Below are positions 4,975 through 63,340 of a stretch of 64,000 nucleotides of DNA, in pieces (position 1 is the stretch's first letter; the number at the start of each line of letters is the position of its first letter). The position numbers were made by a program, and so were the translations under genes. The stretch is from positions 9,477,001 through 9,541,000 of the forward strand of contig NC_135258.1 of NCBI RefSeq assembly GCF_964204865.1. The letters are read 5' to 3'. This stretch comes from Styela clava (Eukaryota > Chordata > Ascidiacea > Stolidobranchia > Styelidae). The notes below the pieces were generated by a model. The model worked only from the letters and a program-made list of their open reading frames with translations. It did not search any database and was not told the DNA's origin.

Positions 4975-5252
4975 TTATTTCCGGTCTTACTACTTACTGA
5001 ATACAGCACGAAACAGCGCAAAATAGTGGGGAAACAGCGCGAAAGAGCGCAAAACAGAGGGAAACAGTGTGAAGCAGAAAAAAATTTTGCAATGAGTTCG
5101 GGGCACCTTGTTTTGAGTTGGATTACCACGGCAGCAAATTAAAAACACAAACCAACGTATGTAGCCAATAATGCTGTAATGGCCGGTCTGCCCCTGCTGG
5201 TGACACATTTTGGGTACCATAATTTAGAACATTTTCCATGTGGATATGGTTG

Positions 5253-5273
5253 GCTTTAGGGTTAGGGTTAGGT
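5253..5273 (+). repeat. Short interstitial TTAGGG run
   Basis: Three near-perfect copies of the animal telomere hexamer TTAGGG in tandem inside the fold-back element, directly left of the nested hairpin element. Too short to be a telomere. Confidence 0.75.
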
Positions 5274-5276
5274 AAA

Positions 5277-5397
5277 AAGGGACCTCCAGAAGTATGTGCA
5301 TCAAGATGGCGCACAACCTGAAAATAGTATGTGTGTGTGTGTGTAGCGCCTTCAGGTTGTGCGACATATTGCTGCACATACTTCTGGTGCACCAAAA
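5277..5397. mobile_element. Nested hairpin MITE, copy 1 (with GT microsatellite loop)
   Basis: A near-palindrome of about 120 bp. The left arm runs CCTCCAGAAGTATGTGCATC to CACAACCTGAA; the right arm is its reverse complement, TTCAGGTTGTG to TACTTCTGGTGCACC. The loop carries a (GT)n tract near 5331-5345. The same arms occur at 51.33-51.44 kb with a different loop, so this is a dispersed hairpin element rather than a chance palindrome. Confidence 0.75.
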
Positions 5398-5694
5398 AGG
5401 TAGATAAAATTTCGCATGATAACCTATAATCCGGTACATAACCTTGTAAATATACCGGAAATAGCGCCATAAAACCATGGCGAGAGGCGCCGTGGTTCTT
5501 TCGTGGCAGGAGGTGGTAATGACTGCGTCTCCTGTTTTGCGCTGTTTCCCTCTGTTTTGCGCTGGTTTCCCTCTGTTTCGCGCTGTTTTCCTCTGTATTG
5601 CGCTGTTTCGCGCTATTTTGCGCCGTTTCGCGCTGTTTAGCGCTCTTTGCGGTGTTTCGCGCTGTATTCAGTAAGTAGTAAGACCCGTTTATTT

Positions 5695-9652: not shown

Positions 9653-10790
9653 TATAGATAGATAGATAGAAGTTTATTCATCATCCAGTCATTAGCCAAT
9701 AAGTCAAACACAAACAACAACATTCGATAAGTAAAAGAAGAATAAATCGACTAACAACGGAATTGATAGGAGGTTGGAAGGACCATACGGTCACTAAATC
9801 GAAACAACTCTCCTGGCATAAAAAAGGTTGACAGATTACATTTTATATTATAGCAATTATAAAACCTTTTAACTTGTTGTAACTAACAATTGAGCAACAA
9901 GAGTAATGTGACACATATTGAGACAAATTTAAAATAGAAGCGGCAAGAAAAAGCATTTAGTTTTATATCACACAAAATAAAAACGTACAAGTAGAAAAGT
10001 TATGAATCAGTACTTATTCAGAAAAGACTGGAAATACTTCTTGGAAAAAACATTAAAACTGGAAATTTCCTTTAGGTTTTCGTTAATATCGTTCCAAATT
10101 CTCACACCCTGGTACTTTATGGAATTTTGGGCCCGCGAGGATGAAAATCGTGGTACAAATAATCCTCCCTTTCGAGATGAACGAGTACCATATGTATGTG
10201 AATTTTTTGTTGTAACAAAATATTGTTGTATTACGCGAGGGGCAGTGCTATTTACCGCTTGATACATGAGCCTTCCCATTTCATAAAAATATAGATCTTT
10301 TATTCTAAGAATACCAAGAATTTTGTAATTACTACTCAAATTTGCCCAGCGTGGCACCCCGTAGATGGCTCGAATTGCTTTATTTTGGATTAGCTGTAAT
10401 TTGTTAAGACTGGTTTTGTCACAACAACCCCAAGTTACGATACCATACAGAATACAAGAATGAAATAATGAATAGTAAATGATTTTTAAAGCATGCAATG
10501 TCAAATAGTGTCTAAGTTTGAACATAATCCCAGTCACTCTTGATAACTTGCTATATAGATATTCAGTATGAGCATGCTATTTAAATTTATTGTCAATAAT
10601 TATCCCAAGATATTTCATGCATGACACTTCAATTAACATTTTATCACCAAAAGATACATGGAAAGCTCTACTTATATTTTTTTGGTGAGAAAGCATATAG
10701 GTCGATTTAGAATAATTTACAGTCAATTTATTTGCTCTCATCCAGGCATCCACTTTGCTTATTTTATTATTTATGAGAATTTGAAGAATA
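9653..10790 (-). mobile_element. 5'-truncated non-LTR retrotransposon (reverse transcriptase C-terminus)
   Basis: On the minus strand an open frame ending at 10007 encodes the C-terminal part of a jockey/CR1-like reverse transcriptase: MTGIMFKLRHYLTLHALKII, then CILYGIVTWG, LQLIQNKAIRAIYG and a tail with YGTRSS. Upstream, in the same frame, lies the RT thumb region (WMRANKLTVNYSKS, KYLGIIIDN), interrupted by a TAG at 10579-10577 where a tryptophan is expected. Nothing recognisable as RT is seen beyond about 10790, so the copy is 5'-truncated and dead. The 3' end (low coordinates) finishes in a short GATA repeat near 9655-9672, as many LINE-like elements do. Confidence 0.85.
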
Positions 10791-10904
10791 TGAGGGCAGT
10801 GGTGGCTTTTAGCAATACATGTGTCATATAAAATGAAGAATGTTTCACTATTCCAAAAAATTAAAATTGTTGCAATCGAAAAATCGCCTGTAAGATAAAT
10901 ACAA

Positions 10905-11402
10905 GAGAGCTATGCTCAAATATATGGACACTTAAAATAAAACGAAATATATTATCATTACTTCACCGAAAACCATAGGGTATCCTACACGAATCTGAAC
11001 AGTGAAACAGCTGCATGGCTATGGTAACTGACTTACTAGTACTTGGTACAAATACCGGTACAGGGACTGTCATAGCTCTTCCATGTCCTGTGGTAATGAT
11101 TTATGTTGTTTACATCAGAACTGTAACGAAAAGATGAGAGCGTAATTCACAAAGGTACCGTACGGTACCTTACCAGTAGGCCTACCTGTTGCTGTACTGT
11201 CGGCCTGTTAATCTATCGTGGAACGGTTCTTCTCTGGCATATAAAAACGAAATTCCATTTGCTCTTATCAAAATTGGTCCAGTATTTGAAGAGAATAGCG
11301 ATTTTATAATAGTGGTGGTGACGAAAAAAAATAAGAAAAATAACAACAACATAATATTGAAACGATCGTTATGTCCACTAAAGTGTCCAAAAATGATGCC
11401 AT
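10905..11402 (-). repeat. Dispersed repeat family R1, long copy
   Basis: Matches 49060-49740 over its length: it begins AGAGAGCTATGCTCAAA, has ACCGGTAC palindromes and a TCCATGTCCTGTGG stretch in the middle, and ends with AAATTGGTCCAGTATTTGAAG followed by GAAACGATCGTTATGTCCAC. The right portion is the reverse complement of the shorter R1 copies at 22.7, 27.1, 52.6 and 55.5 kb. No coding capacity. Confidence 0.65.
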
Positions 11403-13755
11403 AATGCCGTCTTACGCGTTCTAAATATTCAAGCTGGAATTACGGTGTTTGACATCTGCGAGCTCTTTACGAGAAAACGCAAGTATAATCACGCGAGACA
11501 GATTTCGTCGCCAGTGAATAAAACTCGTCCCTGAATAATAAATTGACGTACGGCGACGAAGAGGCGGAAACCGTGTCCTATGGATTCAAATCCTCCGGAT
11601 TCGGTATTCTATATCGCCCCTTTCTACTTGGGAGTATCTGAATTCTTACTTTTGTGCTCTAATCCTGGTATAAAATTTTAATTACCATCCAATAAATGCT
11701 ATCACAGAACAGCAGAAACACTCTACCCCTACTCCACTTTGATAAATTATGGTACCGACGCAGAGATGATTGGCAGATGCCACGACATCCCACTTTATTC
11801 TAATGCATCAGTATATATTTTCACTAACAAAACCATTCCAAATACGCAAATAAATTCAAACGGAAATCCTCTTCCGTAAGCTTCAAAATGTAGCAAACTG
11901 ATGACGCAGGAACGCATCACTCATGCGTAGCAAACCGGCCGTGAGCGAACTGTATTCAGTAAACTATGGTCTTATCGTGGCGGTCCACATCTTAGATTCA
12001 GAGTATATTTCTGCATATACGGCAGTGGTATTGTTGTAACATACGGTACCGGTATCGGACGGCACGGCGCGGTAAGTTATTAATGTATGTAGGCTATGTA
12101 GTATGTTTAGTTGCCTCAAAATTGTAACAGTATCTGTATAATAATTAAACAGTATAACAGAGACAGGGTACATGTTCGATGTTCAAGACCTTCTGATCTT
12201 ACTGGCCTAAGATACAGATGTGCGACATGCACCCCAACAAGTAGGCTACCGGTACCGGTATAACTGCATTTTAGGACTGCTGCGTTATAGTAGGACAACA
12301 GACATGAAATATACAAATAACACTCTTGTTAGCTGTTGATTGGCGCTAGATGCTTCCAGTCACTTTTTCAGGTAGTTTTATTTCGATAGTCTTAAGTGTT
12401 TAAGTTAATAGTCTTTAAGTCTAGGTAGGAATGTTACGAAACACGCTTTTCTGCATCAAAAAATATATGCATCACGTCTGCTAAGTACCGAACCATTAAG
12501 CCGTGTCGTAATACCGTACCGTACCTCTCATAAAAACGACTACGAACTGCCTGCTGTTGTTTGGAATTCCTGCTGTTGTTTGGAATTCCATGAAATTTTA
12601 ACCTAACTTAGACAAAATACATAACTATGATTTGGTATTTGAATTTTTTCATTAGTGCATAAATTTCCCAACATTTGGAGCTTTCAAAAATTACGCTCAA
12701 GTTATACGTACTGCAAATTAATGATATTGTCTATGGACACCAATAAAATTTATATGGACATGTGTATGTCATTCCTAACTTGATACTTGATACAATTTTT
12801 ATGAAGTTTGTCCAATCAGAACATCGATAATTATTACCCGTGAGGAGGCACTGTCAAACTAATATGCACAACTCCAGCAAGTTCTTACTAAAAAAAGGCA
12901 ATTTGCATACGTATACGAGACGCTACAAATTAATTCAAGGCTCGTAAAATATGATCTTAGCACGAGTCTGTCAACGCGTATCAGTTATCGATTCAATGCC
13001 AACATTTTCCCTCGCAGCGATTCCTCTCGTTTTGTGCTTCACTAAGTGCGGTAAATATCTTACGATTTGGGAATTTTAAATGATAATTAATTGTTCATTT
13101 ATTAAGGTCGGACATGAAAAACGCCATATCAGTTAATTACCGCGTAGGCGCGGACTTGCGTAGTGGGGATTGGGGAAGGTCGTTGCCGACCAGAGGTTAT
13201 GTAAAGTTCAGAGACTTTCTCAAACATAATTAATTGGAAAGCAGCTAATTTCGTTAAAAAGAATTTGTAAACATTGTTGCATTAGGTTCTTCTATTCACA
13301 ATATCTTTTCGTTCAGTGTTCATTTAAATATATTTTTTTTGTAACATACCTAGTCTATATATAGTACGGCCTAAAATCTGAGGTATAAACAGCTGTTGTA
13401 AATGGTAACTTGATAATTTTTGCGCTATAGATAGTGAAAGATTTTCCCTCAAACTATTTACTTTACATGAACTGAAGACTGAAAGACACTTAGTCTACTT
13501 TCAGACTTAAATGAATAGAAGTGCCAAATGTGTCAAACTCTCGATTTTTTTAATAATAATCAGATTATTAACACAGATTCATTGTCATCGCAAAATGAGT
13601 AAACCACTCCTTGTTTATACAGCCTTGTTACAGTATTACTGTATTAGGCATTCTGACTTATTTACAGTATTTATGTTCATCTTAAGAAATTTGTAATTGA
13701 ATCTCTAAAATTTTAATATATTTAAGTGCTCGATATAAACTAGGCTAATTCGAAA
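11403..13755. other. Intergenic upstream of riboflavin kinase
   Basis: No exon recognised. It holds ACCGGTACCGGT palindromes at about 12044 and 12250, and a perfect 20-bp tandem duplication of TGCTGTTGTTTGGAATTCC type at 12551-12590. A comparatively GC-rich patch at 13,000-13,200 could be the RFK promoter region, but no core motif is clear. Confidence 0.45.
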
Positions 13756-14256
13756 ATGAATGGCATAAAAACATTCTCCAGCTTGCCTTATTTTTGCCGA
13801 GGAACAGTTATCAAAGGCTTTGGCAGAGGAAGCAAAGAACTTGGTATTCCCACTGCAAATTTTCCAGAATCTGTTGTTGATAATTTACCTCACGATGTCT
13901 CTGCTGGAGTGTATTATGGATGGGGACAAATAGGTTCAGGTCCTGTGCATAAAATGGTTATGAGCATTGGATGGAATCCATATTACAACAACACAAAAAA
14001 GTCAATGGAAACACATTTAATTCATAAATTCGATAAAGATTTTTATGGCAGTGAACTCGGATTGGTTATCCTCGGGTATATTCGTCCGGAGACTAATTTT
14101 GACTCCCTGGAAAAGCTTGTTAAAGCCATTCGTACAGACATTGAAATTGCAAATCATAAACTAAACCAGGAAGATGCAAGAGAATTTTTATTGCATGACT
14201 TTTTCAAACATCCTGTGGGGCAATCATCTACCAATGGTACACATAGTAGTTTATGA
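13756..14256 (+). CDS. RFK: Riboflavin kinase
   Basis: An uninterrupted 166-residue frame encodes riboflavin kinase (flavokinase), which transfers phosphate from ATP to riboflavin to make FMN in the cytosol. LPYFCRGTVIKGFGRGSKEL at residues 10-29 is followed by the PTAN motif (32-35) that binds Mg-ATP and riboflavin. The core SIGWNPYY and the KKSMETH segment carry the catalytic glutamate at about residue 85, and the family region RPETNFDSLEKLV is present. The length is close to the 155 residues of the human enzyme, with about ten extra residues before the conserved LPYFCRG. The coding region is intronless; a 5' UTR intron cannot be excluded. The next gene starts 1.5 kb downstream on the same strand after a polyadenylation signal, so no operon is implied. 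Confidence 0.97.
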   Translation: MNGIKTFSSLPYFCRGTVIKGFGRGSKELGIPTANFPESVVDNLPHDVSAGVYYGWGQIGSGPVHKMVMSIGWNPYYNNTKKSMETHLIHKFDKDFYGSELGLVILGYIRPETNFDSLEKLVKAIRTDIEIANHKLNQEDAREFLLHDFFKHPVGQSSTNGTHSSL

Positions 14257-30500: not shown

Positions 30501-33500
30501 AAAATATTCGTTGGCACAGCAAAGTTCGCAATTTTAACGCAGAATACCTCGAGAAAGACAAGCAGGTTTAATGGATGATAATGCGCGAGAAAATTGCATG
30601 TATTGTGGGTTATCTGGCATAAAGCTTAAATTCAAAAAGTAACTTGTTATGTGAAATCAATGCCCATTTAATCTTTCGTTAAATTAAATCTACTTATGAT
30701 CCAACATGAATGCTGTGAACCTGATATTTTCTTCAACCATTTCATCTGGTACCAATTGTCTCATGTTACCCATGAGCTGAATTGTTGGAAGGTTTTCTAT
30801 CTTGGATATGACGCTTATGTCATCGTCGTATTTTAAAGCCGCCTCGTTTGCCATGTCCTCAAATTTTAAGTCGGCTATTTGCCGTTCTGTTATTAAAGTC
30901 CTCGTCAGAAAAGTTGAACATTCAATGGCATAGATTCTTCCTTCCAATGCCACAAGAAGATCTCGTCCATTAACGAAACTTATTGCTGTAACTGGATTTG
31001 GCAGGAAGCAAAGTTCCCTCAATAACCTACAATGTAAAATACTGAAGTTAGGATCTGTTCATTTTGATGAATGATTATCATCATTTTATACCACATTTAA
31101 CAAAAAACTAGAAGGCTGGAACAGGTCATAATTTAATTCAAAGAGCGTATCAGTGGAGATTTGCTTTGTTTTACAAATTTCGTCAAATACAATCATCATG
31201 TTATGCTTATTTAGTGCGAATAGGATGATGAACGTTTTACGTCTAGCGAAGTGAAACGAAAATTTTGCACTTGTGAAGTTGCATAGACAACACCTCTATT
31301 TGTGTGTTTTGACGCCTATAACCAAAGACCAAAAAAAAACGACAAATTGCATCATTGTATGAGCTAATGAATTTCGGATATGCTATTTTAAATATAATCA
31401 CCTTTATATAAATAAAAAAGACATCAATATGTTCGGTATATCCGTATTGTGACCTTTTGTTGACGAAACTGTGTTCGCAAGACACACCCTGAGTATATTT
31501 TACCTGTTCATTTCATCCCATATTTTAACGTAACCGTCCACACTTGCGCTTGCAAAGAATCTAAGACCCGGAGAACTGGATAATGCTGTGATCCTGCCTT
31601 TGTGATCGTCTTCCGGGTTGTGAGTATGAATTAAGTTACTTCTTTCTTTCATGCGTAACAGATTTCCTACACTTTGATTAGCTGTAAGATATGTCGACAG
31701 TCTATGCTTTTCCAAAGCTGCTTCAATGGCGATTCGTTCATTTCGACTAAGTTTTGAGAAGTCAAGTTTCTGTGAAATTTGCATGATGGTTGGCAGTTGC
31801 ATTCTATTTTAATATTATTCTCGAGATTTATATAAAGAGGATTTTCGAAGTGGCATAAATGCAAAATTTACCAGTTTATGCAAATGATCAGTTGAGTGAA
31901 ATAGACAACATTGTGTCACGAGACACTCCAACCCTTTTATTATTTATAATATATAAAGATGTTGAACATGGGGTTTATATACCCTAGCTTTCCTTCTGCG
32001 ACACCGACTTAGAAAGACATAACACGCACGCAATCTTTTGTACGTATGAGCTTTTTTACCTTTTCGTCTTCGTCGATTAGATAACGTTGTATTTTATCTG
32101 CAGCATTTGAAACGTAAGATATTTCTTTCTCTTCTCGTGGTGATGGTTCAGATTTTCTCGTAATTTCAATGATAACTATGTGACTATCTTCTCTCACCAA
32201 ACACAGTCTATCGCTAATTGCAGCTACAAACACTGGATGAAGACACTGTCCAGGTAGAAAGACTTTCGTAACAGGCTGCAGCGTGAATTCGAATTCAGTA
32301 ACTTTTCCACGATTTGCTGGTGGTTGACCAAAAAAATCTGTTTTCAAAAGAACCTTCCAGATTCGTATACTACTCGCACCAACGCTGAATACTTGGTCGT
32401 CGCAATGTGCAAAATCTGTAAAGTTTGAATATGAATGTATAATCAGAAGTGTTTTGATTTTCTTGGTTAAATATAGAGCGTTGAGAAATTCCTCAAATTT
32501 TCAGCGGGGCGTTTCAATGTATATAGTTTTCGAAAGCGGTATTCTTCACTGTTAATGGAAATTATTTTGTAAATGGGTACCAACCTTCTTGCTTGCTTGT
32601 ATATACATTTTCAGTTGTCAATAGAAATCGCACTGCACCAGCGTGGGCCTGCACATTATTCATCCAAATCATATTAGGTCTGACCAGAACGATTTGACCA
32701 TTACATAATCCTGCAATGATAGCAGTTACTGGAGTGGATTTGTCTCGAAATTTTATCCGAACAGATGCAAGACTGCACACATCTTCATCAAACGTTATGG
32801 CAGGTACAAATCGCTGCAGAGGAACTGACGGATTACTAGTGCAATCACATTGTAATATGCTTCCATCCTGTAGCTTGATATAACTCATTCCAGAATATAT
32901 ATCAAATGTAATATCGGTGAATATCTGAAGAAATGTACGTCACAAAATAAAGTAGTTAAGACAGGTATAAATAAATTTACCAAAAACATTTCACTTAAAT
33001 ACTTCGTTGAGAAATAGTTTACAAATCTCGTCGTATCAAATCGTACCTGGAACGTTGTCATCGGATATATCATGGTAAGCATGAGTCCTGTATTTGGTGA
33101 AAGAATTGCTACAGATCCATCCGATAAAGCAGCAAGAATTCTTCCTTGACGTGAAAATGATACATCTCCACTGATTGGACAGAGTGTTGCCGGAGTTGAG
33201 TGAGGAATTGAATATATTGAGTAGAGATTGTGGTAATAGTAGAGGCTAATCTAAATGAAGTTTATCAGTAAGTTTACAATGTTTTATAGGCACCAGACAA
33301 CTAGACACACTGAATGAATCCAGATATACCATTCTCAATAAAGTGAAATGATATCCAATATATATTCAGTTTCAGCTTATTTATTTTACCTTCATTCAGA
33401 ACATTTGCACACAACTAAATTGTTTAATTTTCTCATACTATAACTTTCTGTTGGGAATTAAATAGAGATTGTTTGTTCTGTTCATTTAGCTTTAAAGAAA

Positions 33501-36500
33501 GTCGCTGTTTGGAAATTATCATAGACTCAAATGAGAACGCATGAGAACGCGCGTCTAAAAAAACAGCCACATTTTTGTGCTACCGATTTATAAACATTCT
33601 GAAATCTTAATATAAGCATACTTACCTGGTGATAGAAAAAAACTCGGAGTGGCATTAACCTCACCTTTCTCTTGCTATGTAGAAAGAAAGAATTGCTGCT
33701 GTCACTCAGGGTTATGTTTTCAATCAATTGACATGTATCTATTCGCTGATTTTCCCGAAATGTTTCAAGACACCAAATTCGAATTGAACCATCTTTTGAT
33801 GAACTGATAAGAATCGGGTGTTTGCTGTGGGCTACAAGACCAGTAACTGCCAAACGGTGACCGAGAAGTGTAGTGACTGTGCCGAAATTAACCTGTTGGT
33901 TTGGAACAAATAAAAACAATCTCAATAAATCCGTTTCGATTCACACTGTAAATTACTCAGCTGCCTGATTATCTCATGTCAAAATCAAATATTATTTAGA
34001 TTTTAGATAATTCGTCACGTGAAGCACAAAAAAATAATACAAAAACAAAGCAAGATAAAAAAAGCAAAAACTCACCATGTGCATTATCTGAATCATACCT
34101 TCTCCGCCTCCTGTAATAAAGTATCCGAACCGAGGAAAAAAGTCACAAACAGTAAATGAAACATGGCCCTTTATGACGTAATTAGAATGGATATTTTGAG
34201 CTGAATCATCTGCAAAAATGAAAAAACGCATTTAGGTTATATTATAATAGAGCATAACAAAAGAGCAATGCGCAAATATATATATATAGGCAAAACATAA
34301 AATGATACCACAGTGTCTGCGAAATATCAGCCAATTATGGAAAGAATTGCACGGGATGCCAAAAAACAATGTTTTCGTGAATTGAGCAGTTCCATTGGAT
34401 CCGGAGCGCTTTTTCACCACAAAAACAACAACAACAATATAGCAAGACCACTCAAGACAAAAAAATATACAAACAGTAAATAAAAATTCGTACCTTCAGG
34501 TACAGATTCTTTATCTGTTTTATCCCCAATTATAAAAGGCAGAGGACTTTGCAGCCTAACGCTCCATATCTGAAACACATCAACATTCTAGACTCTTATC
34601 AAATACATGAACAATTTTCATAATTATAAAACCTGGATAGTTTCATAAATAATCTGCAATATTTAGTAGCATAAAACAGAATATTTTAAGACGCCGCCAT
34701 ATCGTCAGAATGGCGACAGACAACGCGCTATGCAACTAATTATTTTTGTACATTTTATGATCCACCTGTTCTCGTGTCATATAATCAATTGCAACTATTA
34801 CATCCGCACTTGTGGCCACCAGCACGTGTCTCGATCCTCCAGCAACACTTCCTCTCGTATTTGACTCATTGTATATTCTCATGTTGAGGACCCATTCATT
34901 TCTCATGACGTCACATTCATACGGGTGACAAGGCTTGAAATATTTTTATAAATAAATGTTGTACTTTAAAAACAAAAGTTGGTATTTTTATTAAAATTAA
35001 AATTTTTACCTGCAGCATTTGTCTTCCTTGTCCGAATTCGGTATGTGTTGTATCTGGTATTCCACCACGGCCCTTGGAGCTGCTTTGCTTGGTTCTTTTT
35101 CCCGTTGCTGTCTTCTTTTCCTGCGCTTTATCAAGCATATTAAATACAAAAAATAATGGGACAAAGTGCTATGTTTGAGTGCTCATTTATACAAAAATTA
35201 GTAAACACTAAGATAACGCAAATATGGAACACATTAACGCATTTCAGTTTGATATTTGGAACTAAAATTGGCTTCCCGATACTTGTCTTGAACAAAATGT
35301 ACACAAACTACAGGAAGAATATAAGACCTTCGTTCTGTTCTAACCACACTTATAGTCGGGGCAATTAAAAGACTTATCAACTGTTTTCATATTGCTAAAT
35401 TTATATTACGTTTCTTACTCACGTACCACCTGATTTCTTGTCGGTTCCTTTTCTCCTAGGGTTAGAAAATCTAATTTTCCAAGGTTGTATAACGCCGATT
35501 CCTCCAGTGACAACCTCATCTGTTTCATCCAGATAGACCATACTGAGTACCGGCATTGCACAACATGTTGGTGCAGACAAAATCTGACAACGATTTCTTG
35601 TGTCAGAGAAAACTCTCATGTTTTTGTCGCTGCTTATTCCAACAAACAATCTGTGGCAAAAATATTGAAAAAGACCTTGATTATTTTATTCGTAAAATCA
35701 GGGATTTTGCCAATCTGACTACACTTTACTAACACTGAGCAAAATATTAAGAGTTTTAAGAGAAATATTAAGAGAATAAGATGAATTAAATTTGCCTATT
35801 CTATATTTCATTGTTATTATCCAATATTAGATTAGGTATTTATAAGTATTAGAGCGAACATTTTATTATCTCTCGAAATGCGTTCGAAAAAGCATTTTTC
35901 CAACCACCCTTTTTTAGTAACTCTTACTGGTATATCAGGATTGCCAATAAAGTACCCTGAGCGATATCAATGGGTATTCATTTTTGATTGCTATTTGTCT
36001 AGTTTTAACGAACCTGTGCTTTGATGCCCATACCAGATGTTGTAACGGTGGAATAGAAGAGAGATTAAATTCATTCTTACTTCCTGTGTGTTTCTTCAAT
36101 GTATCTGTCAAAAATGGTTTATCGCATGTAATCATCTTCATTAATTATAACAGTGTGAGTGTGTTTTTTTTATTCTCGCCAAAGTTTCTCTGGAAATTCC
36201 GAAAACTTAAAATATTACTAACACTAAAAAAATGCGCCACCATGTGGTAATTTGACTTCGTGGTTATATATTTATCTGTTGCTTTCTCGTTCTCAATTTA
36301 TAAAGTGTAATCGATACAAATAATATATATTACTGATCAAAAGTTTCATTTCTCACCATGCTCAGTATCTTCAGTTTGGGCATCTTTTCTGAATGGTGTC
36401 AATTGAAGAACATTGCTGTTTCCAAATCCAGAGTTCACTGATGTATTACGATAATTAGTTGAAAATGATATTAACAAATTGTATGCCATTGCATCATATG

Positions 36501-39100: not shown

Positions 39101-39106
39101 TTTATT
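39101..39106 (-). terminator. Polyadenylation signal for the cysteine-module gene, long form
   Basis: AATAAA on the minus strand, about 43 bp past the stop codon at 39151-39149. Confidence 0.6.
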
Positions 39107-39148: not shown

Positions 39149-42100
39149 TTATCTGAAAAAAAAGAGAATAAATTCTGAAATATATTCGTTTTTAGTACAA
39201 TAATATATAGTGTTGCTTATATATCCATCCACTTATTGCGTAACACTCTTTTTTGTAGTAAGATTAAAATAATAGATTTAAATAGAAAAAAAAACTTACT
39301 TTTCTTCGCCAGCAAGATCAAAAAGTTCAGCCATTCTAAATGGACAAGCAGACATACAGATCGGATCTGCTATTGTGCATGACACGCATCTCAAATCCGA
39401 ATCTGTTATTATTGAAGGAATCAATAAAGTTACTAAAAACTTTTATCTTATGGCTTTAGATTTGCATATTCTTGAACTAATCAAGAAAAGAAATTTTATC
39501 GATAGTGTCTATAAATATATTTTCCATTTCTTTTAAAATAGGTTTTACATTTAAATTGATTCTGTGTGAACACGGAAACAAGAATGAATTGGGATTTCTA
39601 ATTTTTCAATGAAGTTAATTTAGCCCACCGACAGGTTGTTCAACATTGCGTTGCAATTCCTTCATTCTGTACGGACATGCGGATTGGCAAACTGGGTCAG
39701 AGATGGCACACGAGAGGCAGTGACGAGTGATTTGGTCTAAATGACAAGTTGAAGATTCTATCAAATTTTCAATATTTTGAATACAAATTTGTGGCTGTCA
39801 AATCCAAGTATCTGTCGTACATGATATATCAATATTAATTGGGTATTTAGACAATAATATATTTGCATATATTTATCAGTGGCTTTCCTATTATTTTTTA
39901 ATACCATGTCCTGTATTTAGTGGGTAGTGAAATAAAACATGAAGGAATGTAATAAACCGTACTCAGTTCAATGCCAAGACATGCAAAATAATAAAGAATG
40001 GCTTTTAGAAACTAGTTCTATGTGACTAATAAAATTGCAAATAAAAGTATAACACTTCACCATCCGATTGTACGTCTCGTTCCAACTCCGTCATTCTATA
40101 CGGACATGATGCTTGACAAATCGGATCAGCAATTGCACAAGAGAGACATTGACGAGTGAGTTGGTCTGAAAAGTAATAGAATGAGATAGTAGTAGTTTTT
40201 TAAAAGTATTGAGACCGGAAAACAATAATTACATATTTATCAATAAATAGTTGTTAATTTTAGCCAACTTTTTCATGGACAGTTTTCTGATTTCCCTCTT
40301 TTATAATGTAATATGTCCGATTTTCAAAAGATTTGGGTTATACATGATAAACGAACAGAGGGTTGCTCAATATTATTCATATTCAGCATGTAAGATTTTC
40401 GGAAACACCATTAAATGTCGCCGGACCATTATATATTAAATATCTCCGGTGGTCGGCTCAATCATAGTTATTGACAGACATTCAAGCAATATATATTTAT
40501 TTTACCGTCAGATTGAACGTCACGCTCCAACTCCTTCATTCTGTACGGACACGCGGATTGGCAAACTGGATCTGCGATGGCGCATGTGAGACACTGGCGA
40601 GTGAGTTGGTCTGGAATATTGAATGCAAATTTATGTGATCAGATATTTAAAGATTTTATTAGACATTTTGTCGATTTCGACCACTTTTTCACAATGAATG
40701 GGTTATAAAGTTTTATATTGAATTGTTTTATAAATTATCTTAATTTTCATTTCGAATAACACGTCCGATGTTAGTGAATATGGTACCTATTCGATTAAGA
40801 ATAGCTATACATTCAAAAAGTTGTGTTGTCGGAACGTTACATTCTTTGTAAAAAGTAGATGATTTTCTAAAATCAAAGATTAGTTTGAAGTGTAGAAATA
40901 AGCCCTACATTCCTTGCTGTGGAATAAATATCGTTAGATATGTTAGATCTATCATCAAAGAAATCTTAATTTATCCGATTTGGGCAATACTTTGTTGGTA
41001 GTTTTATTTACTTTCAGTATTTTACGTGGAATATTTCTTTTAATTTGAATGATATCTGACTCTTTCACTGCCCCCACTGGGTTTGCATTTGAAAGTCCGC
41101 AGAATAGTTAGGTCGTTCAAAATCTGACTCGATTTTAATTGCATGTCTGCTCCCTAAATAAAATTTAACAATTGAGCTACGTAATTCTGTTAAAAAATAA
41201 TTTTCGATACAACTTTTAAAATCTTTCATAGTTGACATGTAACTAAATTTTAACAATCGAATCTCACCGTCAGATTGTTGCAAGTCGCGTTCCAACTCTT
41301 TCATTCTATACGGACATGATGCTTGACAAATTGGATCAGAAATCGCACAAGAGAGACATTGACGAGTGAGTTGATCTAAAACGGTAATGTATATTACATA
41401 AATTCGTAGGATCCTTAATGTGGAGAATATTCCATTCCAATACCAACTTTATACGATTATAGCTTCTAATATCATTGATGAGATACTAAGTTATCTCATT
41501 TCATAATTTAGATCAATAAATTATTAACCGTTATTATTATTACACGCTACATATTTTAAATACTGATTAACAGCTTACCGTCCGATTTTTGCAGGTCGCG
41601 TTCCAACTCTTTCATTCTATACGGACATGATGCTTGACAAATTGGATCAGAAATGGTACAAGAGAGACATGTACGAGTGAGTTGATCTAAAACAATAATG
41701 TATATTACATAAATTCGTAGGATCCTTTTAATGTGGAGAATATTCCATTCCAATACCAACTTTATACAATTATAGCTTCTAATATTATTGATTAGATGAT
41801 ACTACCTCATCTCATTTCATAATTAAGATCAATAAAATATTACCCGTTACACGCTACATATTTGTGAATACAGGTTAACAGCTTACCGTCCGATTGTTGC
41901 ATGCCGAGTTCCAACTCTTTCATTCTATACGGACATGATGCTTGACAAATTGGGTCCGAGATAGCACAAGAGAGACATTGTCGAGTGAGCTGGTCTAAAG
42001 AAATGACATGATATTCTAACAAAGAATCCTATCAGAAGGCCATTGTTGAATGAGAGATGCATTTCAATTTTTGCATGATATATATCTGATCTAGCAAGTA

Positions 42101-45082
42101 GATTAAAACGTTTTTGATGCGTCAAAATAGATATAGATATATAAAATAGATATAAAATTTCCCATGTATAAAATGAATGTTTTAGTCGTTTTTAGTTGTA
42201 AAATCCATATTTCTAAAATACAAATTAGATTATTAGACAAATGACCAAATAAAAAAGAATGTTGGCACAATTACGGAACCTGGAGGTACACTATTTCGGT
42301 GAAACGAATTGGTAGGTTTTTAGATTATTGGTTTTCGAAGACGAATTCATTTATTTTTCATTCAAATGCTTTGTTTATTAAAACGTTTTTTACTGGGAAA
42401 TGCATACAGCGTATTCAAAACATCCTGAAGTCTTGGGGTGTCTATACATAATGAAAATAAGAATTAATAATATCAAAATGCAGCTATTAATTATAAAATT
42501 TTATTTTACCTGATTCTCGAGAATTTGGAAAAAACTTAGTACAATTTTTCCCCAACATAAATAACATTTTATAACCAATGAAAAACTGAAATTTTTTCGA
42601 GTGACAACAAGTCGTGGATATCCTGCTGCTTACTCGATACATTTTACTAAGCATCAAAGATAAACAAATCCATTCCAGTGTATTGTATACAGCATTTCGA
42701 AAACGTGAAAATTACAACACTTGCTTGGCACATTTCTGCCATTCTGCAAACATAACTCTTCACAGTTGGTATTTTTACCATTGAACATTTAATCGGACTT
42801 CTTTAGCATGATACAAAAACCGTTAAATATCCGTGTTTTTACAAAAAATATTAATACCGCCTATAAGGCTTTGTTACACTCGTTTTGAGATAAAAATCTA
42901 CCATTATATCAGGGTGGTCCAAAGTTGTTGGTATCCAGAATCACAATATTTTTTTGTATTATTCGCTGACCAAACTGATTTTTCTGGGGTGTTTTACGTT
43001 GCACGTCGCCCGCGGTCCTGGGTTTGGACCACGTTGCCCTATGTAATAATAATAATTTATACTGTGTGTCTCCAACAGCAATTTAAGTTAAAGCACCTAT
43101 CAACCACAAAAAAAAACTTTGGTCGAGTACACTATGTTTGAGTTTACTGACAAGAAATATATAGGAATTAATAGCAAAATATAACAGATTACATGCAAAT
43201 TATAGCATTGTAAAAAAGATTGTAAACATAATGTAACACAATATTATGACACAACAATACACAAGTAACTGATATAGTAGGAGTTTTTATACAATATCCG
43301 ATGTTCATTATACATTGATACAGAATTATCAACATCAACACGGAATGATGAGAAATGCAAAAACTGAACAATACATCTAGGACGGACATGAGTAGAAACA
43401 TATAGGATCGTCAATAGCGCAATTCATGCAATTCCGGGCAGAGATTTCTGGAATTAAGAAAATTTCTAATAAAGTAGTCGGAAGGGTAAAGATACCAGGA
43501 TTTATTTAACATCCCAATATAGCCTACATTAAGTTGACATACACATATAACATACAATACTTTAACCCAAAAGGGCAAAACTTGGATGAGCTGTTTTCAG
43601 AAAATGAGGAAAAGGTGTGTTTTGATTTTTAAACTCCTGTAAATATTTATTGAAAATTTTTGGTGAATAATATTTCGAATAAAGATTGAAATATGAATTA
43701 TTTATAAACAACAATTAAATATCAACTTGAAGAGCTTCCATTTCTTTGTAACATTTTCAAATAAACTTTGTTTACAAAATTTCAACTTTAACTTTGTGTC
43801 TCGAAATCCACGAATTGTCTTATTAAAACATGTTTCAGTGGGCATAGGTATATCGATAATTTGAAAACCTAAAACTCATATTAATTGTCGTAACGCGGGT
43901 AGATAAATAGACAATGATATCGAGACCTTGATGGACAAAAATGTTATAATTGTGTATATTCAAAACCAATAGTCAGGAATCGAGCGAAAGCTCACTATCG
44001 CGATATGGTAAATTTAAGTTCGATAACGTCTTATAGTAAATATACTACATTTAATAAAATGGCTTTAATTACATTTGTCAACAGCGTCCCTATCTGTTCT
44101 ACATATATACACTGTAGGTAGTGTAGCTAGAGCCAGGACTCAGCCGAAGAAACCGACTGGGAACCATGGTGCCTGTACCTCGTATAGCATCTCGTTGGAA
44201 GTAAAAAAACTAAATGCCTAATTTTTGTATGCAATAGATTGTTATTGTGCTGACACTTCTGTTCCATTAAAATTACTGTTTTTCTTTCAATATATATTAA
44301 TAAAAAAAAAACCACATGCTCCTGCAAACTCGATATGTAAATTAAAAGAAAGTCGTACCCTTTTCCACTTGTCGTTCATTTCCAGATTTCATTGCCTTCA
44401 TACATATTGTCTCATAGATTGTTGATTCTGGATTGTCTACAAGACAGAGTTCAGCTAACATGTGTTGTGATGCTTTTTTCAGAAGTGTCTTTCCTTCGTC
44501 AGAAAGACCCTTCTATTATAACACAAAAACAAAATTATCAAGTTTAAATATATTCGAAATAAATACAGAATAAGCGGCCTTATTCAAAAATGGAATAGGG
44601 GTATATGCTTATATATTCATTGTTGTATAATGTGGTTGTCTTTTTGTATGATCCATTAACCTTTTGATCAAAATAAATAGTAGAAGATCAAAAGTACATT
44701 TTAAATCACAGAACATTCACTGTTAAGGGATTCTTTTTCTGCACGATTGTGAAGCATTCGCTTCAAGCAAGGAAAATCAGCATTTAAATTATTGAATACA
44801 GATGGGAAATATAATTTAAATATAGCAATAAAAATGTAATTCAATAGAGCGAAATTACTCTGCAACAATTACATACATTGCATTTAAGCGAGATACCTTT
44901 GCAGAGTCCTAATTACAGATAAAACTCCTATGATACTTCTTATGATACATTTTTGAAAAACTTTTTATTATATAAAAATGGTATTTTACGTTCGTTGAGG
45001 TTTCTTGTTTCACACGTGGAAGAAACGCTGCTGATGTTGTGATAACGCACAAACAGAAAACCGCTATAACGGATGAATACAT
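39149..45082 (-). CDS. Secreted multi-module cysteine-rich protein (predicted long form)
   Basis: Predicted splicing: signal exon 45082-44990, helical exon 44512-44359, then seven module exons 41994-41887, 41686-41579, 41375-41268, 40610-40506, 40165-40061, 39736-39629 and 39402-39300, and a last exon 39152-39149 that supplies only the stop. About 331 residues. The first exon begins MYSSVIAVFCLCVITTSAAF, a typical signal peptide. Each module reads like DQLTRQCLSCAISDPICQ followed by ASCPYRMKELE and an acidic/Gln tail: cysteine pattern C-x2-C-x6-C-x3-C-P with an invariant DP. The first six modules are 35-36 codons with phase-1 introns on both sides; the seventh diverges and exits in phase 2 into the stop exon. 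The long form is an inference from matching phases: 2.4 kb separates exon 2 from the first module. I do not recognise the family. Two disulfides per module and export from the cell are likely. Confidence 0.68.
39300..41994 (-). repeat. Tandem array of seven cysteine-module exons
   Basis: Exon order 5' to 3': 41994-41887, 41686-41579, 41375-41268 (each 108 bp), 40610-40506, 40165-40061 (105 bp), 39736-39629 (108 bp) and 39402-39300 (103 bp). The first three differ by only a few residues, and the introns after the first two modules (about 200 bp) are nearly identical, sharing GGATCCTT, GAGAATATTCCATTCC and CCAACTTTATAC. That marks recent duplication of a unit of about 310 bp. The fourth to sixth modules are older copies; the seventh (RCVSCTIADPICMSACPFRM) is the most diverged and has lost the DQLTR lead. 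Conserved in all seven: four cysteines, DP and CP-aromatic-RM. Confidence 0.9.
42350..42642 (-). CDS. Possible small two-exon gene or orphan exon pair (70 aa)
   Basis: A start codon at 42642 opens a 44-codon exon (42642-42510) ending in a phase-1 GTAAAA donor. After a short intron a phase-1 acceptor leads to 42441-42362, which closes with TGA, and AATAAA lies at 42355-42350. The product ends TPRLQDVLNTLYAF and then KKRFNKQSI; the first exon is rich in K, F and C without a clear signal peptide. The splice sites, phases and polyadenylation signal agree, and the phase matches the surrounding cysteine-module gene. The second exon could therefore be an alternative end of that gene. No family is recognised and the pair may be fortuitous. 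Confidence 0.3.
43377..45082 (-). CDS. Secreted single-module cysteine-rich protein (short form, 105 aa)
   Basis: Three exons: 45082-44990, 44512-44359 and 43447-43377, all GT-AG, with phases 0 and 1, closing exactly at TAG. Residues 1-19 form a hydrophobic signal peptide ending in TSAA before FLPRVK. Exon 2 (51 codons, KGLSDEGKTLLKKASQ, then LAELCLVDNPE and ETICMKAMKSG) is predicted helical with two cysteines. Exon 3 encodes EISARNCMNCAIDDPICFYS, then CPS and stop: one module with the same C-x2-C-x6-C-x3-C-P spacing as the seven exons further downstream. It ends right after CP, where the other modules continue with YRMKELE. It may be a complete gene, or an alternative terminal exon of the long form, because exon 2 leaves a phase-1 end that fits both. 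The function is unknown; export from the cell is likely. Confidence 0.7.
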
Positions 45083-61939: not shown

Positions 61940-63340
61940 AGAAAATAACAACTACCTAGTTTCTTGAACTTCTTCTATAGTTAGCTGTGGAGTGAATGGT
62001 TCAACAATAGCTATATTTGTTTTCAGCGTATTATCTATTGGTGCGTAATGTGCTAAAAAGAAAACGGTGATACTTTTAAGTTATCTCAGTCATACCATTT
62101 ACTTATTTTGGTAAGCTTATATTCATATTAAATTTTTTATATTATTATTTAATAAGTTCAAGCACTGACATTAGACTCCACAATAGAAAAACTAAGCTGA
62201 ACAATATTTAAAAATATAGTTGTGATTTGGTTATTCGGTTTTTAATGTATTGACGTCATGAGTAGTCATAACAATAACGACATTGTGATCTGCAGAAAAA
62301 TAGCCGTAAATTCAAAAGCGCTCCCTTTACAATTTTTTTTTCAATATACAAAAGAAGCTTCAACCGACGTAATTGGCCACCGCCAGATTATTTGTTGGTA
62401 TGTAATGAGCGAAAAATATGTGATATTTTGTAACATCACGTGGGACTAATTTAACAATGCCTAAATCAAACATGAAAATTCATTCATTGACATGCAAACA
62501 TTTCACCCAATGGCTGCTATTTAGCCTTAATGCCTCAAGTTAGTAATTTGCGTGGTTTATAGTGAAAAACCTTTGTGTGGGTTTTTAGGGGTAAATGAAT
62601 GTTTGGAAAAGTAGAGAAATCAGGCGAATATTCAAAGTCATTCTATATTACATTCTATCTTGAATATATATGTCTTTCTCGGAGAACAGATATTGCTGAA
62701 TGCAAACTGTACGTTTAACTTTATCATGAATCTGAATGCAAATACAAGAAATGTTGTTTTCTTTTTAAAACAAATTTTTGCATAATTTATTGCTAACAAT
62801 GTCTTTTCTCGGAGAACAGATATTGCTGAATGCAAACTGTACGTTTAACTTTATTATGAATCTGAATGCAAATACAAGAAATGTTGTTTTCTTTTTAAAA
62901 CAAATTTTTGCATAATTTATTGCTAACAAAAAAATCGATAAGAAACCCAGTTAAAACTTCTTATAATGGGACATGAGAATTATTGAACTCTATTCCACGC
63001 AAATTCAAACTTGATAATCAATGGATCTGAGATTCTGGCACGCATTATAATCTACTTGACACGAACGGAAGTGCGTTGTGAGATGCGTCACTTTGTTTTT
63101 GTGACATATGTCAAGAACACATATGCCTTATTGTTATTCTTATTGTTTGTACTTATATATGTATAAAAGCCTTGGTATAATTGGACGAGTATAAAACGAA
63201 TGTTGCTTTGTCCTATCCTATTAGATTTAGCTAAGTGCGCCCGGAAAATAAGCACAATTGAGTTAAACATAACTAATATATCATTGAATATTTATTATGA
63301 GTAAAATGTTCATTGTGCATATTGTACATGCATATCATAT
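61940..63340. other. Interior of the inverted repeat, right half, no gene seen
   Basis: Contains a repeat related to 50.87 kb (about 62095-62290) and the 130-bp tandem duplication at 62.67-62.93 kb. No exon following the peptide-like exon at 61.8 kb could be identified. Confidence 0.45.
62671..62929. repeat. Tandem duplication, two units of about 130 bp
   Basis: TGTCTTTCTCGGAGAACAGA begins one unit at 62671 and, with one extra T, the next at 62800. Both units run through GCTGAATGCAAACTGTACG and ACAAGAAATGTTGTTTTC to TTTATTGCTAACAA and are almost identical, with only two single-base differences noticed. Confidence 0.9.

Follow-up and report, generated by a model that had tools for sequence, protein, structure and literature searches.

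Exon structure of the gene and other features of the window

The stretch of DNA analyzed here, hereafter the window, is 64 kb long (C10:9477001-9541000). Its GC content is 34%, and the observed/expected CpG value is 0.975, and therefore there is little CpG depletion. On the plus strand, a riboflavin kinase is encoded in a single reading frame at 13744-14253 (Pfam Flavokinase, 128 bits), which may be an intronless gene or a retrocopy. Exons of a WD40-repeat gene were found on the minus strand at 31503-33940, where the ORFs 31503-31808 and 33530-33940 match Pfam WD40. Two further minus-strand ORFs, at 10010-10909, resemble by eye a LINE-type element at its reverse transcriptase end; for the ORF 10010-10576, Pfam gave no match. 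In addition, the window contains a minisatellite (5003-5665; periods of 10, 20 and ~30 bp) in two blocks of opposite orientation, and two tandem copies of 130 bp (62670-62929) with 98% matches, which represent a recent duplication.

A search for the pattern CxxC-x6-C-x3-CP in six frames of the window gave eight matches, all on the minus strand and within 4.1 kb, while 60 first-order Markov sequences of 64 kb gave none. The gene that carries these modules runs on the minus strand from 45082 (ATG) to 39149 (end of TAA), and both limits coincide exactly with those proposed in an earlier note on this DNA. The gene model comprises ten coding exons, namely E1, E2, the module exons M1-M7 and the last exon, and gives a product of 331 aa. 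The exon borders are predicted splice sites, scored with weights not fitted to this species.

E1 (44990..45082) contains the start codon and the putative signal peptide MYSSVIAVFCLCVITTSAAFLPRVKQETSTN, with a hydrophobic core whose best 9-residue mean is 3.4; it ends in a phase-0 donor and is comparable to the first exon of the paralogue described below. A second E1 donor is located at 45016 and is in phase 1 (score 4.6 versus 1.2 for the modeled donor). Its use could splice E1 directly onto a module and leave out E2. E2 (44359..44512; phase 0 in, phase 1 out) encodes a predicted helical segment with a C-x13-C pair.

The array consists of M1 (41887..41994), M2 (41579..41686), M3 (41268..41375), M4 (40506..40610), M5 (40061..40165), M6 (39629..39736) and M7 (39300..39402), with exon lengths of 103-108 bp overall and of 105 or 108 nt for M1-M6. 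M2 and M3 lie within a recent 311-bp cassette duplication, M4 and M6 have a sequence type in common, and M5 has that of M1-M3. M1-M6 are phase 1-1 exons, and M7 is entered in phase 1 and left in phase 2. The final exon (39149..39152) starts with the last base of a Lys codon, followed by TAA, and its acceptor ranks first among the 261 AG sites of the region; an AATAAA poly(A) signal for the long form is found 3' of this stop (39101..39106). Eight of the nine modeled donors score among the top 20 of 335 GT sites, and the weak one is the phase-0 donor of E1 (rank 84/335). The acceptors of E2 and of six of the seven array modules score only moderately, at ranks 34-86 among the 261 AG sites.

Most of what the earlier note had described was recovered, with some corrections. 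The seven minus-strand C-x2-C-x6-C-x3-C-P exons are present where it had placed them, but their total number is eight, since one module, Mx, had been overlooked. The DP pair described as invariant occurs in 8/8 modules, and the CP-[YF]-R-M turn is found in seven of the eight, the exception being Mx. Six modules had been called symmetric, and all six (M1-M6) are bordered by AG and GT, with phase 1 at either end. The idea that any number of the symmetric modules could be gained, lost or skipped without a change of frame does not extend to M7, which is not freely skippable because its phases differ (1 in, 2 out). Both upstream exons had been thought to end in the phase of the modules; this is true of E2 (phase 1), whereas E1 as modeled ends in phase 0, which fits E2. 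The proposal of a secreted repeat protein can be retained: the modules are arranged in tandem on symmetric phase-1 exons, and the long-form protein is probably secreted. Its mature form, if cut after residue 19 as assumed, contains 30 cysteines and has a pI of 4.8.

The eighth module and a single-module paralogue

Mx (43377..43447) is located between E2 and M1 and encodes the module EISARNCMNCAIDDPICFYSCPS, followed by TAG. All four cysteines are kept, and the stop comes directly after the fourth (CPS*). Its acceptor ranks second among the 261 AG sites of the region. Its in-frame stop excludes Mx from the interior of the long-form coding sequence; splicing from a donor at 43388 would bypass the stop, but this donor is weak, and its use would also remove the fourth cysteine. 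Joining E1, E2 and Mx would give a product of 105 aa with one module.

To place this exon, a second gene is informative. E2 was found in two places in the genome, namely at its own position and at C10:9612139-9612273 (58% identical over residues 3-49 of the query, E 2.8e-10). The latter belongs to gene B, which lies ~90 kb 5' of the window gene, on the same strand of C10. Gene B consists of a first exon with a putative signal peptide and a phase-0 donor (C10:9613554-9613459), a second exon (C10:9612288-9612132; phase 0 in, 1 out) and a third exon (C10:9611625-9611558) encoding one module, GIVARSCMCAVADPVCFAACPV, followed by TAA, with AATAAA 138 nt past the stop. The predicted product is 106 aa long, and the exon order, phases and stop position are identical to those of E1-E2-Mx. 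The module of gene B ends in CPV*, where Mx has CPS*, and is one residue shorter, having C-x-C in place of CX2C. Given the shared layout, phases and stop position, Mx most likely represents the last exon that the window gene had originally.

The rate of change points in the same direction. Nonsynonymous differences between the window gene and gene B are similar for the E2 exons (pN 0.31) and the module (Mx; pN 0.28), with far higher synonymous differences (pS 0.67 and 0.84, respectively), and conservation of Mx thus seems about as strict as that of E2. This similarly slow change is the main argument for Mx being the last exon of the original gene, as opposed to debris. Amino acid identity of the gene B module is 13/22 to Mx versus 9-12 of 21-22 to M1-M7; it is the stop position that would group this module with Mx, and identity alone would not place it. 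It is uncertain whether Mx serves as a last exon, because the nearest poly(A)-like signals 3' of it are distant (ATTAAA at 583 nt, AATAAA at 871 nt), compared with 138 nt in gene B.

Copy number, growth and predicted structure of the array

The searched genome assembly comprises 376.6 Mb in 379 contigs. With M3 as the query, eight places were found, all at the window locus: M1-M7 and, weakly, Mx (E 0.048). The M7 query gave seven places, again at the window locus only, and the gene B query found gene B itself (two exons), the window E2 and, weakly, Mx (E 0.79). These single-protein searches indicate one array copy in the assembly, at this locus; as the search scores best candidates only, and the M3 and M7 queries missed the gapped module of gene B, a diverged single module elsewhere could escape it. 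Over 190 kb fetched around the window, of which 20 kb surround gene B and two stretches overlap by 1 kb, a profile scan gave gene B and otherwise no E below 1.0. The module pattern was also found in 3 stretches of IMG/VR and 11 of prokaryote genomes, and no relatives were among them.

A unit of 311 bp is present in 2.4 copies across M1-M3 and the accompanying introns. The introns i1 and i2 are identical at 180/194 aligned bases, the alignment having 15 gap columns and, in BLAST, 86% identity over 209 columns; M2 and M3 are identical at 101/108 bases, and M1 and M2 at 94/108. From the near-identity of i1 with i2 and of M2 with M3, it follows that the latest copy was an intron-plus-exon cassette of 311 bp. 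M4 and M6 have residues and codons in common that are absent from M1-M3 and M5, and the M4/M5 comparison is saturated at synonymous sites, which suggests, with modest support, an older duplication of a two-exon unit. The grouping of M4 with M6 received a support of 0.957 in FastTree, and no supported grouping was obtained in IQ-TREE; the module trees are short and poorly supported. The nonsynonymous/synonymous ratio was 0.04-0.33 in 13/28 module pairs, all among M1-M6; the remaining 15 pairs, which include those of M7 and Mx with the others, are saturated at synonymous sites. M1-M6 are thus under purifying selection.

AlphaFold modeling of one module with its seven relatives placed helices at residues 2-8, 15-20 and 22-34, with a mean pLDDT of 77.5 and a pTM of only 0.37. 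E2 modeled alone with AF2 gave helices at 5-23 and 31-43 (mean pLDDT 69.8). Each module is probably a short helix, a turn and a longer helix, with two disulphides and with the DP pair capping the second helix; the disulphides are expected because of the signal peptide and the even number of cysteines. A Foldseek search of the PDB with the 36-residue module model returned no matches. The long-form protein contains neither a furin motif nor an N-glycosylation motif, and its one dibasic site is a KK in E2, with none between modules. With no furin site and a dibasic site only in E2, the long form is probably left uncut, and its processing to individual peptides by the common convertases is not favored.

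Profile searches with the whole protein gave scores above cutoff for Fer4_10 in Pfam (34.1 bits, cutoff 25.5) and for a SPASM model in NCBIfam (43.4 bits, cutoff 27). M3 alone had no match in Pfam and reached 16.6 bits (E 0.008) for SPASM in NCBIfam, under the cutoff of 27. M7 alone matched only Fer4_2 in Pfam (15.0 bits, cutoff 24.5) and gave two sub-cutoff NCBIfam matches, to NuoI and to a radical SAM/SPASM maturase (12.8 and 10.6 bits), both iron-sulphur-type proteins judging by name. Column-shuffled six-module controls were run against the same databases. In Pfam, 3/8 scored above the cutoff of some unrelated family: one for the PriA zinc ribbon (38.7 bits), one for both DksA (29.4) and Tricorn_C1 (27.7), and one for DUF6901 (27.5); another was just under the cutoff for Fer4_20. 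In NCBIfam, where the last of the eight controls was one module shorter (178 aa), 1/8 passed a cutoff (LSD1 zinc finger, 17.6 bits, cutoff 15.5), and another scored 39.1 bits for a ribosomal protein model, under its cutoff.

It follows from the controls that repetition inflates such profile scores. As none of the eight had a match to Fer4_10 or to SPASM, these two whole-protein matches are not wholly accounted for by the controls and are probably due to cysteine spacing. The iron-sulphur profile matches to the whole array seem mostly to be a result of the summing of repeats. Membership in Fer4_10 was rejected, as the match depends on summed repeats and no single module reaches the cutoff; the weak SPASM likeness of a single module is the main remaining result in favor of a metal site. 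Sequence searches of the PDB gave a best E of 0.019 for the full protein (Hsp90) and 0.029 for gene B (protein A), both judged to be chance, and no matches for the module profile. A match of E2 to CarD_C was below cutoff and was rejected.

Interpretation and comparison with known systems

We favor, with moderate confidence, the reading that a one-module secreted gene received an additional, alternative 3' end of seven modules that grew by cassette copying. The original form would have had three coding exons, for a signal peptide, a helical segment with one cysteine pair and a module ending in CP-x-stop, and both gene B and E1-E2-Mx would preserve it. In the window gene, repeated copying of the module exon would then have built up the downstream array of seven, which has a final exon and a poly(A) signal of its own. 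Splicing to Mx would then produce the one-module peptide of 105 residues, and skipping of Mx the 331-residue chain with seven tethered modules, which would probably act as an uncut multivalent version of a one-module ligand or binding unit. In kind, this is an animal gene whose protein would be secreted, cysteine-rich and mainly helical.

That Mx is instead a dead relic or a poison exon, with the seven-module form as the sole product, would agree with the lack of a nearby poly(A) signal 3' of Mx, but seems fairly unlikely given its four intact cysteines, an acceptor of rank 2/261 and a pN to gene B similar to that of E2. The long chain could also be a polyprotein precursor, cut between modules into near-identical two-disulphide peptides with a role in defense or signaling. 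Tandem modules of 34-36 aa with four cysteines and a predicted helix-turn-helix are like those described for Tk-AMP-X (PMC7191063); the missing dibasic and furin sites between modules, with the only KK in E2, make such processing unlikely. We give a similarly low probability to a structural extracellular-matrix or adhesive protein whose chain is cross-linked through disulphide-rich repeats, as has been proposed for galaxins. The signal peptide, the ~35-residue repeats, the pI of 4.8 and the 30 cysteines would suit this role, and galaxin is likewise described as acidic, predicted extracellular and built of repeats (PMC2726143). Against it, the di-cysteines of galaxin are absent from the translated protein, and the single-module relatives, namely gene B and the Mx form, look like small soluble peptides.

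Two separate units, in which E1-E2-Mx is a complete gene and M1-M7 belong to another transcript or to an array never joined to E1-E2, would explain why E1-E2-Mx has the same order of exons, the same phases and the same stop position as gene B. This arrangement is nevertheless quite improbable: M1-M6 are under purifying selection, the array is phase-compatible with E2 and its final exon has a stop and a poly(A) signal. In addition, when the stretch between Mx and M1 was scanned for a first exon that resembles a signal peptide exon and ends in a phase-1 donor, only four weak candidates were obtained, three of which have one donor in common (donor scores 0.1-0.5). An iron-sulphur or zinc-binding repeat of the ferredoxin, SPASM or LOB-like type is very improbable, for although the whole protein exceeds the Fer4_10 and SPASM cutoffs, M3 and M7 alone show sub-cutoff likeness to SPASM (16.6 bits) and Fer4_2 (15.0 bits) and the spacing CX2CX6CX3C is that of LOB, no single module reaches a cutoff, shuffled controls pass those of unrelated families, the cysteine spacings of ferredoxins and SPASM differ from that of the module, and the protein appears to be secreted.

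If a one-module gene with an added seven-module 3' end is the correct reading, one genome keeps both the before and the after of tandem-module growth: a one-module paralogue, a terminal exon still in place and a young downstream array with datable cassettes. How a secreted protein goes from monomer to multivalent chain could then be tested at one gene, and a cysteine module with no convincing match in Pfam, NCBIfam or the PDB would be added. A more specific version is put forward tentatively, namely that the alternative 3' ends yield the original one-module ligand and a seven-module tethered form, with valency set by copying of the 311-bp unit, and that the module is a new animal four-cysteine helical fold.

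EGF, Kunitz and similar domains occur in proteins that have grown by symmetric phase 1-1 exon cassettes. The window gene likewise carries one module per phase 1-1 exon, at the predicted splice sites of all six of M1-M6, and appears to have grown by cassette duplication; the EGF and Kunitz modules themselves differ from the window module, as judged by eye.

The earlier note had known of no named family with this cysteine spacing. However, CX2CX6CX3C, present in 8/8 window modules, is identical to the spacing of the zinc-finger-like motif of the plant LOB (LBD) proteins (PMC7178066), which was the only family recognized by title among the matches listed in a literature text search for that string; the strings C-X2-C-X6-C-X3-C and CXXCXXXXXXCXXXC and the module peptides gave no match. 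Homology is not indicated: PF03195 (LOB) did not match the window proteins, gene B or the short forms at E up to 10, and LOB proteins are plant transcription factors with a GAS block and a coiled coil, whereas the modules here are in tandem and probably secreted. A clear match to a known domain family had been named as the result that would speak against a new protein, and no convincing one was found for the module in Pfam, NCBIfam or the PDB.

Schistosome micro-exon genes likewise encode secreted proteins in series of small exons, and spliced isoforms are made. Their exons are given as 3-81 bp in PMC10526429, whereas M1-M7 are 103-108 bp long and each encodes a whole four-cysteine module, and membership was rejected. 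Coral galaxin, in the description cited above (PMC2726143), has tandem ~30-residue cysteine-rich repeats with di-cysteines; no CC is found anywhere in the 331-aa translation, so the window protein was not assigned to the galaxins.

The alpha-hairpinins, as described in PMC7191063, carry two CX3C pairs and form a helix-turn-helix, which is only predicted for the window module. Their fold consists of two antiparallel helices with the disulphides C1-C4 and C2-C3. According to the same account, their precursors likewise have a signal peptide and tandem four-cysteine modules whose number varies between related genes. The Tk-AMP-X precursors contain 5-7 modules and are encoded by intronless genes, whereas the window gene has one module per exon, and the window array is without convertase sites between modules, unlike the plant precursors. 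The first cysteine pair is CX2C in 8/8 modules and CXC in gene B, not CX3C, and membership in the alpha-hairpinins was rejected on this point. While they fail on the first cysteine pair, the alpha-hairpinin precursors, as far as this source describes them, may serve as the closest working analogue of the window gene.
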